Source: a virus
Virus record (IMG/VR): IMGVR_UViG_3300020468_000083
Coordinates: 1 to 22,397 of that record
DNA length: 22,397 bases
Strand: one strand, 5' to 3'
The position numbers and the translations under genes were made by a program. Below are positions 17,477 to 22,397 of the stretch, in pieces (within the stretch, counting starts at the first letter, position 1; each line of letters begins with the position of its first letter). The notes beneath the pieces were generated by a model that worked only from the letters and a program-made list of their open reading frames with translations, was not told the origin of the DNA and did not search any database.

Positions 17477-17489
17477 TTATTCTGCTAGT
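17459..17489. terminator. Convergent stop-codon hairpin between gp53 and gp32 genes
   Basis: ACTAG and CAGAA (17459-17463, 17467-17471) pair with TTCTG and CTAGT (17480-17489), leaving a 3-nt bulge and an 8-base loop CTTAATTA that contains both stop codons back to back. The structure works on either strand. Neither side has a long U tract, so it may be a weak bidirectional terminator or an mRNA 3'-end stabiliser. Confidence 0.5.
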
Positions 17490-18367
17490 TTAGCAAAGTA
17501 AGATAGTGCATCATCTTCGTCTTCATTAACACTCGATGGTGTTGTTGAAACAGCAGCAGTTACTAACTCTTCTGCTTCACCACGATCATTATCTTCTTCA
17601 AAAGTTTCTACATCTTGACGAGCAGTGGATGTATTACCAAGAACATAACCAAGACGTTTTTTCAATTCATCATAAGTTTTAAATTGATCTGGTGCAACAA
17701 ATTCAGATAATGATGATTCTTTCTTCCAGATTCCTTCGAGTGCGTCATCATCATCAAGTAAAGGAGTAACTGCAGTAAATTCAGAACTATCATAGTTTCT
17801 GTATCCTGCTACATTCTTTGCCTTCAACTTGAAGTTAGCACCTTGCCAGAAATCAAATGGATCAATTGCTTCTTCATCTTCGAACTCAGGTTGCATTGCT
17901 GCAGTGAGTTTATCAAATATCTTTTTACCGTACTTGAATAAGAATACTTTACCCTCATTCTCAGGATTTGTTGGATCTTTTACAACATAAATGTTGCTGA
18001 TGTAAGTTAACTTACGTTTCTGCTTTCTTGCAGCATCTTTACCTGCATCTGTTCCATTGTTCCATAATTGAGTATTGTACTCAGAAACAGGATCTTTCTG
18101 ACCTAATGTGGTCAAAGAGTTTTCAATGTACCAACCGCCAGTACCTTGAAAGGCATGACTGTATAGTTTTATAAATGGAAGATCTTCTCCATTTGGTGCA
18201 GGTAGAAATCGAATAACGGCATAACCATTACCAGATTTATCACATTCTAATTTCCAAAGACGATCATCACCTGATGCGCCATTGTTATTCATTTTTTCCA
18301 CTTCCTTAACTAACTTTGCAGTTAAAGAACCTAATTTAGATTGCTTTTTTAGATTAGCAAACGACAT
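17477..18367 (-). CDS. 32: gp32 single-stranded DNA-binding protein (296 aa)
   Basis: Clear T4 gp32 relative. The N-terminal basic LKKQSKLGSLT segment serves cooperative binding. The OB-fold core begins WKLECDKSGNGYAVIRFLPA (38-57), with GGWYIENS (77-84), and VVKDPTNPENEGKVFLFKYG (128-147) matches T4 almost word for word, as does QGANFKLKAKNVAGYRNYD. The C-terminus (about 254-296) is strongly acidic and in T4 recruits partner proteins including gp59 and polymerase. The Cys and His ligands of the T4 zinc subdomain are missing; the protein has one cysteine (C42). It binds replication and recombination ssDNA. It has its own host-type promoter and a distinctive repeat leader with a GAGG Shine-Dalgarno, after the DUF1825-like gene. 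Confidence 0.95.
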   Translation of the reverse strand: MSFANLKKQSKLGSLTAKLVKEVEKMNNNGASGDDRLWKLECDKSGNGYAVIRFLPAPNGEDLPFIKLYSHAFQGTGGWYIENSLTTLGQKDPVSEYNTQLWNNGTDAGKDAARKQKRKLTYISNIYVVKDPTNPENEGKVFLFKYGKKIFDKLTAAMQPEFEDEEAIDPFDFWQGANFKLKAKNVAGYRNYDSSEFTAVTPLLDDDDALEGIWKKESSLSEFVAPDQFKTYDELKKRLGYVLGNTSTARQDVETFEEDNDRGEAEELVTAAVSTTPSSVNEDEDDALSYFAKLAE

Positions 18368-18407: not shown

Positions 18408-18436
18408 ATTATAACAAAAAATTATATATTCGTCAA
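18408..18436 (-). promoter_or_regulatory. Sigma70-type promoter for gp32
   Basis: The minus strand carries TTGACG (18436-18431), a 17-base spacer and TATAAT (18413-18408), a near-consensus vegetative promoter. Transcription would start about 18401, giving a leader of about 35 bases. The -35 box overlaps the TGA stop of the DUF1825-like gene. This would give gp32 expression by host RNA polymerase before or beyond the upstream operon. Confidence 0.75.
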
Positions 18437-18759
18437 GTACTGTTTTTCATTTTTTCAATTGTATCTTCCATTGCACTGAATAATATATTCATATCAGTCC
18501 CTTCTGGGAATCCCATGATTTTGACTGATTTACGTAAATTTTTAATCATTTCATTCGCTTCTGGATCATCTGAAAGAGATAATCTAGTATACATTATTTT
18601 TTGTTTTTCTAATAAAATTTCAAGATTTTCAATATGATTTTTAAAATCTTCACGTTCCATATCTCTCATATTCAATCCATTAGTATAAACTTCTTTTTGA
18701 AGTTCATGAATTTCTTGAATTGATTCTCTAATAATATCAGAATCGAAAAATTTACTCAT
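18433..18759 (-). CDS. DUF1825-like protein (108 aa)
   Basis: The sequence starts SKFFDSDIIRESIQEIHELQ and continues with a long helical region (MEREDFKNHIENLEILLEKQ), YTRLSLSDDPEA and a C-terminal amphipathic helix. The opening FFDS, the central M..RE..FxxxIExLExLxE heptads and the RLxLSDDxEA turn agree with DUF1825, a small all-helical family of cyanobacteria with phage members. This is from memory of the family and supports a cyanobacterial host. The function is unknown. It has a good GAGGA ribosome binding site and overlaps the gp59 stop by 8 bases, so it belongs to the replication operon. It might be taken for gp33 by position, but the better gp33 match is upstream. Confidence 0.7.
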   Translation of the reverse strand: MSKFFDSDIIRESIQEIHELQKEVYTNGLNMRDMEREDFKNHIENLEILLEKQKIMYTRLSLSDDPEANEMIKNLRKSVKIMGFPEGTDMNILFSAMEDTIEKMKNST

Positions 18760-19351
18760 TTATAATTTTCCTCAATATTTGCTTAAATGAAAATACATTA
18801 ATATTTAGGAAAGATTTGTATTTTTTTATCTTTAAACTGACGGATTCCCACACTGGATCATCTAAATCTTGGTCAAATTTTTTCCCAAAAGAAAATATTT
18901 TTTCGAAAATTACTAAAGTTTCTAAATTTACTTCTCCTCTCAAATACTTTTTGAGAACTATTGGGTGTCCTTTCGAACAATTGAATACTTCTTCTAATTT
19001 TTTTTCCGATAGCAATTCCTTTGATTGTTCTTTGAACAAGTAAGTCAAACTCTGCTGTCGTTTCATCCAGTCTGTGTACGTTCTTTCTCCAGAATTTATT
19101 ATTTCTCCAATCCATAGATTTTGTGGTGTATCTGTAGTTACAAAGTTTGCTAGTAGAAAATTAGTAATTTCCTGATCAGAATATTTTCTAGATGTTTTTT
19201 CAAACCAATACTTATCCTTTCTTTTGTTGAAGGATGTCATTGTTGCTCTAGACTTACCTCCATATTTGAAAAAATCATACTTTTTATTTGTAAAATGACT
19301 TTTCATTGAAAGATAAGTCTGATAAGTTTCAAATGGTGTCACTTTCATCAT
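18752..19351 (-). CDS. 59: gp59 loader of the replicative helicase (about 200 aa)
   Basis: T4 gp59 loads the gp41 helicase onto gp32-coated forks. The match is visible along most of the length: YQTYLSMKSHFTNKKYDFFK corresponds to T4 YKLYLMIKQHMNGKYDVIK, KRKDKYWFEKTSRKY to T4 KRRDKYFFQKLSEKY, ITNFLLANFV to IFISNLV, and DQDLDDPVWESVSLKIKKYK to the T4 end DEQTDNLVWNNYSIKLKAYR. Length is close to the T4 217 residues. I placed the start at ATG 19351 (a second ATG follows at 19348) instead of the GTG 12 bases earlier, because homology starts after it. The gene overlaps the end of the 70-residue gene by about 23 bases. Confidence 0.85.
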   Translation of the reverse strand: MMKVTPFETYQTYLSMKSHFTNKKYDFFKYGGKSRATMTSFNKRKDKYWFEKTSRKYSDQEITNFLLANFVTTDTPQNLWIGEIINSGERTYTDWMKRQQSLTYLFKEQSKELLSEKKLEEVFNCSKGHPIVLKKYLRGEVNLETLVIFEKIFSFGKKFDQDLDDPVWESVSLKIKKYKSFLNINVFSFKQILRKIINE

Positions 19352-19541
19352 CTGTTTCTTCACTTTCTAATTCTGTAATAGCATCAACAGGGACTTCTTC
19401 GTCTCCAATACGATACCAATGTTGGGGAATCCCTATACTGTCAGATCTGACACCCAAATACTCCAAATCGGAAAAACTATGCTCTCTTAGCATAGCTTGC
19501 AGTCGATAATGGACTAATTGGGATTGAGATACTTTCATCAT
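19329..19541 (-). CDS. Conserved-looking small acidic protein of unknown function (70 aa)
   Basis: I do not recognise the family. Residues 4-50 (VSQSQLVHYRLQAMLREHSF and DLEYLGVRSDSIGIPQHWYR) look well ordered with one helix and a short beta region. The last 20 residues are Glu/Asp-rich. The start is ATGATG, overlapping the gp33 stop by 4 bases (ATGA), and its end overlaps gp59, so the three are translationally linked. Its position inside the gp33-gp59-gp32 module suggests a role in replication or late transcription. Confidence 0.7.
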   Translation of the reverse strand: MMKVSQSQLVHYRLQAMLREHSFSDLEYLGVRSDSIGIPQHWYRIGDEEVPVDAITELESEETDDESDTI

Positions 19542-19798
19542 AATGGTAGTTTAGCTCTAGATGTTTTTTTCATAAAGTTTAAACTAATTGCGTCGTACTT
19601 TAATCTTTCTTTTAAAGACTTTGAAATTAACTTAGAAACTGATTCTACCTCAATTTCATTCATTTCGCAATACTGACAGATCGCATCAATATGATTAAGT
19701 TTTTCTTCAACAACTATTTTTTCTATTTCCATAGAAAACTTAGCAGCTGTTAAAAACTTTTTCTCTATCTCTTTTTCTAATTCTTTACTATGTTCCAT
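19538..19798 (-). CDS. 33: gp33 late-transcription co-activator (86 aa)
   Basis: T4 gp33 (112 residues) bridges RNA polymerase to the gp45 clamp for late transcription. Here MEIEKIVVEEKLNHIDAICQ corresponds to T4 IIEKMVEEFGMSYLEATTAF, and the following NEIEVESVSKLISKSLKERL to T4 NSIPETQFAKFIPSGIIEKI. The C-terminus ends KLPL, a hydrophobic tail in the place of the T4 clamp-binding motif. I chose ATG 19798 (MEHSKELEKEI) because the homology and helical start lie there; the longer frame upstream (to 19903) runs over the nuclease gene and looks random. It overlaps the nuclease stop by 11 bases. The TATAAATA box at 14119 would be its target promoter type. Confidence 0.75.
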   Translation of the reverse strand: MEHSKELEKEIEKKFLTAAKFSMEIEKIVVEEKLNHIDAICQYCEMNEIEVESVSKLISKSLKERLKYDAISLNFMKKTSRAKLPL

Positions 19799-20465
19799 AG
19801 AGTTTAAGTTTATCTTTAATAAATTTGGTAATATATTGTTGAAGCAATTTGATGTATTTTGCTTTGTCATATTCTTCATAAACGATGCATTCTCCATTTT
19901 CACATGCCATAATAATGACTAATTTTTTGACTGTAATACCAGTCATTTCATATAACATACAACCGTATGCCATACATTGTACAAAGTAGTGATCGACCCA
20001 CTTCCTTGGTTTAGGTTTTTTAGATGTTTTAAAATCAATTATTGATAGTTCTCCATCATACTCTGCAATACAGTCAACTGTACCTGCTACCCCTAGATGT
20101 GTGCTATACATTGGTCCTTCCAGAGCATGTATATTATTTATCTTGTTAAGTTCCTTTTTTGATATTTTAAATAAAAAATCAGATATCGGAGGAACCTTTG
20201 GAAGATCATCATTTTTCAGATAATATTCGGTAAGAGTATGCATGTCTGTTCCACGGGTCGTGGCAGCTTTTGTGACACGATCTGCTTCTTCATTTCCAAC
20301 TCTTTTTCTCCAATCAAGAAAAATTTGTTTATTGAAATGACTTGTAACAGATGTAATGGATACTAATTTAAGTAATTCATCATCATCTGGAACAGAATAA
20401 TAACGAACTCCATCTATTGTCTCCCTGTGTAATTTTGGAAGATTGATGTTGATATGATTGAACAT
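19788..20465 (-). CDS. RecB-like PD-(D/E)XK exonuclease (225 aa)
   Basis: Active-site pattern of the RecB/Cas4-type nuclease family: H76 in RGTDMH, E116 in ALEGPMY, D131 in GTVDCIAEYDG, D144 and K146 in SIIDFKTSKK, and the Q163 motif in YFVQCMAYG (QxxxY). The first 60 residues contain SVTSVTSHF-like helices common to the family (SITSVTSHFNKQIFLDWRKR). Length (225) is typical of the single-domain phage versions. No iron-sulfur cysteines are evident. It lies between phoH and gp33 and overlaps phoH by one base (TAATG), so it probably serves DNA end processing in replication or recombination, or degradation of host DNA. Confidence 0.85.
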   Translation of the reverse strand: MFNHININLPKLHRETIDGVRYYSVPDDDELLKLVSITSVTSHFNKQIFLDWRKRVGNEEADRVTKAATTRGTDMHTLTEYYLKNDDLPKVPPISDFLFKISKKELNKINNIHALEGPMYSTHLGVAGTVDCIAEYDGELSIIDFKTSKKPKPRKWVDHYFVQCMAYGCMLYEMTGITVKKLVIIMACENGECIVYEEYDKAKYIKLLQQYITKFIKDKLKLYGT

Positions 20466-21223
20466 TATATACCCATTTCAATTTTAGCAGTAAGATATTC
20501 TTTGACTAATCCAGAACGAACTATATCATCGATACCAAACTCTATTATATCAAAAGATGGCATTTTACGCAAGATGTTCATAAAATCAACAATACCATTA
20601 CGATCATTTGTTTTAATCAAATCGGATTGACTCGCATCACCACAGAACATGATTTTACTATTTTCACCCACACGAGTTATTATACTGTCTAATTCATGAA
20701 AATTTAAATTTTGAAATTCATCTACAATTATAATCGCATTGTCAAGAGTTGTTCCTCTTAAAAATGAAGTGCTCCAAAATTTAATAGTATCTTGAGATCT
20801 TAGATTTCCATACAACATTTCAAAATCTGCATCAGATGGCATTTGAAACATATATTTTACCATATGTTTGTAAGGAACCTGATAAATGTCAGATTTATCA
20901 TCATGATCACCAGGTAAAAATCCTATCTCACGAGTTGCAACTAGTGATCTAACAATGTATATTCTTTCATACGGTTTACTCTCATCTAACACATTTTTCA
21001 AAGCATTAAAAAGTGCAATAAACGTTTTTCCTGTACCTGCACATCCATAACTAACAATATGCTTTCCTTCATTATATGAAGAAAATAATTTTTTTTGGTT
21101 TTCAGTGATTGGTTCAATATCAATTAAATAAGAAGAATTAAGAGGTTTCTTCTTTTTCATTTGTTTTGCAGTCAAACCAACTCCGATTGGTTGATCACCA
21201 TTACTTCTTTTTCTTCTTGGCAT
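20465..21223 (-). CDS. phoH: PhoH-like P-loop ATPase (252 aa)
   Basis: The PhoH ATPase domain follows a basic N-terminal tail. A conserved PITENQKKLF lead-in (38-47) precedes Walker A GCAGTGKT (60-67); RSLVATREIGFLPGD (92-106) is a family signature; Walker B IIIVDEFQN is at 164-172, and GDASQ at 195-199. The family is related to the N-terminal half of superfamily 1 helicases and is found in nearly all marine cyanophages. Its role in infection is unsettled; links to phosphate starvation or RNA metabolism have been proposed. It follows the small 87-residue gene by one base and overlaps the nuclease gene. No PHO box was sought with confidence. Confidence 0.95.
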   Translation of the reverse strand: MPRRKRSNGDQPIGVGLTAKQMKKKKPLNSSYLIDIEPITENQKKLFSSYNEGKHIVSYGCAGTGKTFIALFNALKNVLDESKPYERIYIVRSLVATREIGFLPGDHDDKSDIYQVPYKHMVKYMFQMPSDADFEMLYGNLRSQDTIKFWSTSFLRGTTLDNAIIIVDEFQNLNFHELDSIITRVGENSKIMFCGDASQSDLIKTNDRNGIVDFMNILRKMPSFDIIEFGIDDIVRSGLVKEYLTAKIEMGI

Positions 21224-21224
21224 A

Positions 21225-21488
21225 TTAAGTAATACCTCTTTTTGCTAATCTTCCTTGTATCCCACCAGATTTTTCAGATTTATCCAAAATGTGTTTCCAA
21301 CCAGGATGTTTATTGTTCAATTTATCTCTCCATTCTCCAACTTCACCAACACCAGGACATGTTGTAGGATCTGAAAAATCTCTCTCCCAATCAGGATTAC
21401 TAGATTTCCACTGATCCCATTCATGAACACTCATCACAACTTCTTTTTGTTCACCAGTTTCTTTATTTTTTACAGGATATGTTGCCAT
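21225..21488 (-). CDS. Small conserved-looking phage protein (87 aa)
   Basis: Starts MATYPVKNKETGEQKEVVMS, a beta-hairpin-like opening that recalls FmdB-type zinc ribbon proteins, but the paired cysteines are absent (one Cys at 44). The middle is Trp/Asp-rich (HEWDQWKSSNPDWERDFSDP) and the end GWKHILDKSEKSGGIQGRLA is basic. Small proteins of this type next to phoH are familiar in cyanophages. The function is unknown. It may be a degenerate zinc-ribbon regulator, though this rests on a weak resemblance. Confidence 0.75.
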   Translation of the reverse strand: MATYPVKNKETGEQKEVVMSVHEWDQWKSSNPDWERDFSDPTTCPGVGEVGEWRDKLNNKHPGWKHILDKSEKSGGIQGRLAKRGIT

Positions 21489-21512: not shown

Positions 21513-22145
21513 TTAGACCCACTCTAGAGCTTCTGATACTGCAGGGAATTGTTCGGTAAATACCTTACGACATGCCTCTGCAATCTCCATATGCTCCTTC
21601 TGTGTTCCGTGTGCAGACCTTAGATTGATATAGTGTATCCATGAACGACAAGAACCTGTCATGTAGATCTTAGTGGGAGTACAGAGTGGTAATACCATTC
21701 TAGCACACTCCTTCGCAACACCTTCTTCAATCATTTGATTATAAAGACTCTGTGCAGAACTAAACAGAGTAATCATCTGACGATTCAGTTTATCAACAAC
21801 TTTCTCATCTAAATCATCAATACTATTCTGACGATTCTTTTGATCTTGTCTACGTAATTCTGGTAATTCAATCTCACCTAATTCATTACTCTTTGCATAT
21901 CGTTGAGAAAATTCTTGAAATGTAAAACTACGATGTCTTAGTATCTGTGCTGCAATTGCTCTTGTAGTTTCAATTTCAAGTGTCATTGTAGATTGCTCAA
22001 ACACAGACCAATGATTATGTTTGATGCAATATTTTAATAATCCTGCGTAGTTTGGATTATCTTGATTATCTGGATTGGATACTCTGGCAATATGAGCCAT
22101 CATTTTTTCAGCATCAGGTGTGATGCTTATTAAATTAACTGTCAT
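21513..22145 (-). CDS. thyX: ThyX flavin-dependent thymidylate synthase (210 aa)
   Basis: ThyX converts dUMP to dTMP using methylene-tetrahydrofolate, NADPH and FAD. The signature RHRx7SxR is present as R70-H71-R72, S80 and R82 (RHRSFTFQEFSQRY). The C-terminal substrate-binding set includes R149 (ECARMVLP), R167 (SCRSWIHY), H171 and R176. Length fits the phage and bacterial enzymes. AAGGA lies a suitable distance upstream of the ATG. It supports viral DNA synthesis and is common in cyanophages. The gene follows a terminator and its own promoter. Confidence 0.95.
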   Translation of the reverse strand: MTVNLISITPDAEKMMAHIARVSNPDNQDNPNYAGLLKYCIKHNHWSVFEQSTMTLEIETTRAIAAQILRHRSFTFQEFSQRYAKSNELGEIELPELRRQDQKNRQNSIDDLDEKVVDKLNRQMITLFSSAQSLYNQMIEEGVAKECARMVLPLCTPTKIYMTGSCRSWIHYINLRSAHGTQKEHMEIAEACRKVFTEQFPAVSEALEWV

Positions 22146-22188
22146 TTCCAGATCCTTTTAAGTTTTATAGATTTATATATCAAAATTT

Positions 22189-22216
22189 ATTATAGCATAA
22201 AAAAAGAGGGAATCAA
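22189..22216 (-). promoter_or_regulatory. Sigma70-type promoter for thyX, -35 in a terminator loop
   Basis: The minus strand carries TTGATT (22216-22211), a 16-base spacer and TATAAT (22194-22189), with TATGC just before the -10. It would start a transcript about 22182 that reads thyX, phoH, the nuclease, gp33 and gp59. The -35 box is the loop of the terminator hairpin at 22203-22224. Confidence 0.65.
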
Positions 22217-22224
22217 CCCCCTTT
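22203..22224 (-). terminator. Rho-independent terminator upstream of thyX
   Basis: On the minus strand AAAGGGGG pairs with CCCTCTTT around the loop TTGATT, giving 8 pairs with one G-U and then four more U residues. The wobble works only on this strand, so it ends the DUF4278-like transcript. Confidence 0.75.
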
Positions 22225-22227
22225 GTT

Positions 22228-22314
22228 TTATTTTCCGTATAGAAACTGAATTTCAGCATTTATGATTGTGAGAAAGATAGCAGATGCTACCAAAATCTCA
22301 AAAGTTACAATCAC
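22228..22314 (-). CDS. Possible small membrane peptide (28 aa)
   Basis: A GTG at 22312-22314 overlaps the TGA of the upstream gene (GTGA). The frame encodes 28 residues (core TFEILVASAIFLTIINAEIQ) and stops just before the terminator. Residues 2-20 are hydrophobic enough for one membrane helix. Coupling and position favour a real gene, but length and lack of recognised homology keep confidence low. Confidence 0.35.
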   Translation of the reverse strand: MIVTFEILVASAIFLTIINAEIQFLYGK

Positions 22315-22397
22315 TTAGCAGTGTGAGCGATACCACGATATGTGAGTTCGACCTCTTTTGCTTGCTGAGCTTTGTTTCTGTTGGTGTCATACTTAAC
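22311..22397 (-). CDS. DUF4278-like small protein, 5' end beyond the window
   Basis: The last 28 residues of a minus-strand gene are visible, from VKYDTNRNKA to the C-terminus VELTYRGIAHTAK. The final ELTYRGI motif is the core of DUF4278, a short family of cyanobacteria and their phages, seen here at the C-terminus. The function is unknown. It is the first gene before the possible 28-residue peptide and the terminator, so these form the end of an operon entering from the right. Confidence 0.55.
   Translation of the reverse strand, partial: VKYDTNRNKAQQAKEVELTYRGIAHTAK

Follow-up and report, generated by a model that had tools for sequence, protein, structure and literature searches.

Does a single short stretch of phage DNA both end the transcription of one gene set and begin that of the next? 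The question is raised by minus-strand positions 22224 to 22189 of the window, i.e. the whole 22,397-base virus record analyzed here, whose named relatives are T4-like cyanophages. Read on that strand, the site is 5′ AAAGGGGG-TTGATT-CCCTCTTT-TTTTATGC-TATAAT 3′. The initial annotation placed TTGATT in the loop of a minus-strand hairpin, 16 bases before TATAAT, and this reading of the sequence is correct, coordinates included. Its promoter hexamers are right as well, although it overlooked the TG that makes the –10 an extended one. As argued below, the site is very probably an intrinsic terminator fused with a host-σ70-type promoter, the two forming one ∼36-bp module where two gene sets of a T4-like cyanophage meet. 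The features considered are listed in Table 1.

Table 1. Positions of the fused element and of neighboring genes in the window
Feature	Position	Strand	Basis or remark
phrog_5049 gene, 3′ end, cut by contig end	22312..22397	–	PHROG; end coordinate from sequence; upstream gene
28-aa ORF, GTG start, end of upstream gene set	22228..22314	–	stop codon ends 3 nt before hairpin
Terminator stem, 5′ arm (AAAGGGGG)	22217..22224	–	sequence, fold, covariation in relatives
Loop TTGATT, –35-like hexamer, 4/6 to TTGACA	22211..22216	–	sequence; relatives' loops
Terminator stem, 3′ arm (CCCTCTTT)	22203..22210	–	sequence, fold
Seven-T tract, putative terminator U-tract and promoter spacer at once	22199..22205	–	sequence; alignment
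Extended –10 (TGCTATAAT)	22189..22197	–	TG at 22197–22196; hexamer TATAAT at 22194–22189
Expected transcription start, ∼7 nt past –10	22182	–	predicted from spacing only
thyX, first gene after promoter	21513..22145	–	start codon 49 nt past first –10 base
phrog_385 'transcriptional regulator', within thyX gene set	21225..21488	–	PHROG
phoH	20465..21223	–
Exonuclease (PD-(D/E)XK)	19788..20465	–
gp59 helicase loader	18752..19363	–
gp32 ssDNA-binding protein	17477..18367	–	own promoter possible at 18436–18408

Downstream of the element lie thyX, the phrog_385 gene, phoH, the exonuclease gene, gp59 and gp32, in this order and all on the same strand. The possible promoter directly before gp32 is a strong match (TTGACG-17-TATAAT with TG, 11/12) and has no listed terminator. 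On the other side, the 28-aa ORF is hydrophobic, overlaps the stop of the phrog_5049 gene, and falls below the 50-aa threshold of the ORF list.

The eight pairs of the stem comprise four G-C, one G·U and three A-U pairs. RNA corresponding to 22232–22196 folds with a predicted energy of –13.1 kcal/mol (z = –3.1), a value reached by 1 of 200 shuffled sequences. The window thus contains what defines an intrinsic terminator, a G+C-rich RNA hairpin with a U-tract immediately after it. The same bases also have the form of a σ70-type promoter (–35 and –10 at 16–18 nt, or an extended –10), with a spacer of 16 between TTGATT and TATAAT. In the 10 kb of the window that we scanned, terminator-like sites number 10, compared to 3.4 expected from shuffles, while promoter-like sites are no more common than in shuffles (48 versus 51.1), and hence a promoter match by itself proves nothing. 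An Rfam search of 21900–22397 gave no match.

The initial annotation called for a conservation check in other phages. We collected 80 loci through a ThyX search of IMG/VR; 56 of them have the fusion before thyX, with the hairpin center 19–21.5 nt before the –10. In all 56, a promoter hexamer lies in or at the loop (TTGxxx in 51, TTTACA in 5). Among the 52 distinct elements, TTGACA is the commonest hexamer (17); spacers measure 17 nt in 44 elements and 16 nt in the other 8. A co-oriented ORF ends within –17 to +33 nt of the hairpin in 56 of 56 cases, compared to 447 of 1120 random positions. Of the 24 loci without the element, two have no upstream DNA, five have 203–482 nt, and 17 have 950 nt or more. 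L033 and L076, although they count among these 17 under the strict rule, have imperfect forms. One caveat here is that the thyX loci are related sequences rather than independent samples.

Conservation had first seemed absent when the 150 nt just before thyX were compared. This reading was dropped, as the element lies further upstream in the relatives and other small genes occupy those 150 nt. The distance from –10 to thyX is 161–1047 nt in these phages and 49 nt in the window. This variation suggests gain and loss of small genes between the boundary and thyX. The slot itself holds differing small genes across the relatives (L002–L081) and none in the window. Within 34 nt of the start of the –10, ATAAATA, which resembles the T4 late promoter core, occurs in 8 of 50 distinct elements versus 149 of 20000 AT-matched stretches, an excess that comes from a rough test and is partly due to the –10 itself. 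In the eight carriers (L002, L008, L011, L018, L031, L042, L062 and L065), it lies just past the –10.

Stem letters vary among the relatives, and complementarity does not. For the 52 distinct elements, the two arms of each stem pair at 347 of 354 positions (98%), whereas arms swapped between elements in the same register pair at 78.7% (s.d. 2.0), with a maximum of 86.7% in 2000 trials. As these elements were picked partly for their hairpin, we repeated the selection hairpin-blind, using only the promoter hexamers and a T6 spacer. At least six of seven pairs were then found in 54 of 55 distinct sites, a number that never exceeded 46 when arms were swapped or 30 when the 5′ arms were shuffled. 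Two of the sites counted as paired (L073 and L081) are yet probably false promoter picks, and L033 scored low on account of a loop exceeding the size that the rule permits. A gap-free alignment of 23 elements in one register, the window included, retains the T tract and shows double changes at all seven pairs. Standard pairs make up 100% of its stem positions versus 83.2% after shuffling, and none of 500 shuffles scored as high on any of five measures. When one arm was slid, pairing ranged from 54.7 to 95.0% and covariation was lower. Thus, the stem letters change in pairs and complementarity is kept. Where stem positions are imperfect, G·U outnumbers A·C by 17 to 2 (P = 7 × 10⁻⁴; 52 of the 55 sites, three being left out for weak pairing). 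Such a bias fits pairing in RNA read in this direction, and is not predicted for an operator or a cruciform.

The loop was analyzed in 299 IMG/VR loci that had not been chosen by their loops, 80 of them from the thyX set and 219 from T-tract/extended –10 patterns. These contain 507 distinct terminators, of which 214 have a –10 at 17–22.5 nt and 293 do not. TTG is present in the loops of 110 of the former and 37 of the latter (P = 1.9 × 10⁻²¹). For TTGA[CT] the counts are 69 of 214 versus 3 of 293, and for loops agreeing with TTGACA at five or six positions they are 87 of 214 versus 8 of 293. Distances from loop to –10 in this sample peak at 19–21 nt. In σ70 promoters, the –35 and the extended –10 substitute for each other, and a corresponding trade-off is seen among the 52 distinct thyX-site elements: five or six matches to TTGACA occur in 24 of 25 elements lacking the TG, versus 10 of 27 that have it (P = 6 × 10⁻⁶). 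In mirroring this substitution, the hexamer in the loop shows the behavior of a functional –35.

A loop –35 is nonetheless not the rule. In one sample that was not selected by loop, a simple hairpin is present at 78 of 121 sites, with TTG in the loop at 36, absent at 41 and outside the loop at 1. P-SSM2, of which 250 of 252 kb were scanned, has a –10 at 18–20.5 nt from 9 of its 25 strong terminators, and six of these nine fused elements lack TTG in the loop. Loops of GCAA, GAAA, TTTC, GTAA and other sequences also exist. The loop –35 is therefore a frequent part of the element, strongly kept at thyX and not obligatory, with the terminator and the –10 forming the common core. The initial annotation had proposed that one element both ends the upstream operon and starts the thyX operon. 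Its dual build is borne out by the 56 loci of 80, the compensatory stem changes, the consistently co-oriented ORF ends, and the trade-off between loop and extended –10; what needs amending is the loop –35 as a general feature. Its further suggestion, that read-through and initiation could be linked, is a hypothesis.

These exceptions are what give some appeal to a simpler account, in which a terminator hairpin adjoins a plain extended –10 promoter and the TTGxxx of the loop adds little, persisting by descent or through a loop preference. TGnTATAAT is common, the TTG-less loops of P-SSM2 and of the unselected hairpin sites would be expected, as would the GCAA loop of S-SKS1, and the window itself combines a TG with a loop that matches TTGACA at only four of six positions. 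Under this account, however, it is hard to see why TTGA[CT] should be so concentrated in the fused terminators, why all 56 thyX elements should have held on to TTGxxx or TTTACA as the stem around the hexamer was rewritten, or why the loop –35 should be strong in nearly every element that lacks a TG. We consider this account unlikely. In the window, a large share of promoter strength may come from the –10, which may even dominate, given the TG and the imperfect loop.

Other explanations fare worse. The palindrome is centered on the –35, and the same gene set encodes a PHROG 'transcriptional regulator', so that one could imagine an operator for a dimeric regulator, with no terminator at all. But an operator would keep its letters, and here complementarity is kept while letters are not; moreover, a T tract on one side only and a location past the end of an ORF are what one would expect of a terminator. 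We thus regard an operator as highly improbable. N4 virion RNA polymerase recognizes a DNA hairpin as its promoter, and a conserved hairpin inside a promoter recalls this arrangement. The excess of G·U over A·C, which fits RNA pairing, and the presence of a standard –10 make a cruciform of this type less probable still. Fortuitous overlap in an AT-rich, compact genome would accord with the shuffle counts for promoter-like matches in the window. At the thyX site, though, chance is excluded because the combination is conserved in relatives (conservation, covariation, spacing and trade-off together); the element in the window is not a chance overlap, and we give this explanation almost no weight.

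Fusion of an intrinsic terminator with a σ70-type promoter is thus the reading we prefer, with termination, initiation, the sigma factor used and timing all inferred from sequence. RNA polymerase completing the upstream small genes would produce an RNA with the hairpin and U-tract, and would halt in the T tract. The same DNA would serve as promoter of thyX-phoH-exonuclease-gp59-gp32, with the loop as –35, the T tract as spacer and TGCTATAAT as extended –10, host σ70 polymerase starting at ∼22182. The hairpin would form only in RNA arriving from upstream, because the new transcript is expected to start downstream of it. Such a module would likely shield the promoter against transcription arriving from upstream while taking up minimal space, and would mark a boundary beside which small gene cassettes can be exchanged.

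Judging by standard footprints, polymerases cannot be present at the T tract and on the promoter simultaneously. Some interference between termination and initiation, positive or negative, is therefore likely. One form of coupling would be a hand-off, in which a polymerase terminated in the T tract, already lying on the next –35 to –10, is kept on the DNA and re-initiates with sigma. Polymerase kept on DNA after intrinsic termination can restart at nearby promoters in vitro, according to PMC6978380. Restart near the stopping point would be the shared feature; that work concerns other templates and an in vitro system. It makes a hand-off a reasonable idea, albeit an unlikely one. If it were true, upstream transcription would feed the thyX genes rather than occlude them. 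In any case, whether a terminated polymerase starts anew from a promoter located where it stops could be studied on these elements as natural templates.

How does this layout relate to known ones? PeSLs (promoter-early stem-loops) of T4-like phages are reportedly composite promoter and terminator cassettes, said to be defined by a stem-loop terminator and a σ70-like promoter in one short cassette. The window element has this composition. Further similarities are the closeness of the promoter behind the stem-loop, the occurrence at gene-set boundaries and the neighborhood of variable small genes. Several copies per genome, as in P-SSM2 with its nine, may be another. As regards the swapping of genes by recombination between PeSL copies, the pertinent observation here is the varying distance from –10 to thyX, with differing small genes in between. 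Spacing is where they differ. In RB49 (150 of 164 kb, as three 50-kb pieces), eight terminators lie with their loops 49–50.5 nt from a –10, and in seven of the eight a matched –35 follows the T tract; loop and –10 are 19 nt apart in the window and 18–20.5 nt apart in P-SSM2. The RB49 order of a terminator followed by separate –35 and –10 is not that of the window element, and at the spacing of P-SSM2 the hairpin takes the place of the –35. There is a discrete difference between the two layouts, ∼49 nt in RB49 versus ∼20 nt here. These comparisons suggest that the window element works like a PeSL whose terminator has been moved onto the –35, and extend the PeSL idea to a fused layout. PMC4503421 contrasts S-PM2 with other T4-likes, in which PeSLs are far denser.

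Extended –10 σ70 promoters resemble the element in the TGnTATAAT of the window and many relatives, and differ in that here a –35-like hexamer is usually kept too, inside the terminator loop. Tandem arrangements of a terminator and then a promoter occur in compact phage genomes, and likewise insulate one gene set from the next. What distinguishes the present case is the sharing of bases, with the T tract as both U-tract and spacer and the loop as both terminator loop and –35. Among the titles and beginnings of abstracts searched, none describes a –35 within a terminator loop, and on this basis alone the fused layout is called undescribed. Across widely divergent relatives, evolution has left promoter and terminator superimposed: the stem has been rewritten pairwise, while the –35-like hexamer of the loop has stayed at a constant spacing from the –10 and is at its strongest in elements that lack the extended –10. 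The element also provides an easily recognized mark of gene-set boundaries in uncultured cyanophages.

Among named phages, 9 of 15 have the element before thyX. TTG is at the loop in P-SSM2, P-TIM68 (element at 194244–194277), S-SRM01, AG-345-F15, AG-345-E02, AG-345-L05, S-CAM1 and ACG-2014i, while in S-SKS1 the same hairpin recurs around a GCAA loop, again with T tract and TGCTATAAT. For S-SSM7, S-CAM9, S-WAM1, S-B05, DSL-LC02 and Syn9, no co-oriented element was found in the stretch examined before thyX. In the last 47 kb of Syn9, the rule used for P-SSM2 and RB49 detected none, and a looser rule detected one co-oriented element. It lies just upstream of cobS (L213, ∼405), where an ATTC-loop hairpin is followed by TGCTATAAT, with the loop center 17 nt before the –10. 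The window fragment contains one fused element, and P-SSM2 and MED4-213 carry further copies after regA and the major capsid gene.

BLAST with the 61-bp element returned 217 records. Many were low-quality matches to phages that are not related (e.g. 66 Klebsiella records), and only cyanophage matches were taken further. Scanning for TTGATTCCC-N-TATAAT gave 120 stretches, most of them unrelated; by eye, simple fusions were seen only in L087, L100 and L102, and L156 was of a nested type. This second layout consists of an inner hairpin (CTGGCAAAATCCAG), TTGAC or a similar sequence in a bulge, an outer terminator stem, a T tract and a –10. We observed it at 26 sites, namely L156, L217 and 24 further IMG/VR sites, and by BLAST in 281 cyanophage records, at one place in each. 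In S-WHM1 (L448, position 237) it lies before ORF1-psbA-psbD, and in S-SM2 (L449, position 1513) before the genes preceding gp43.
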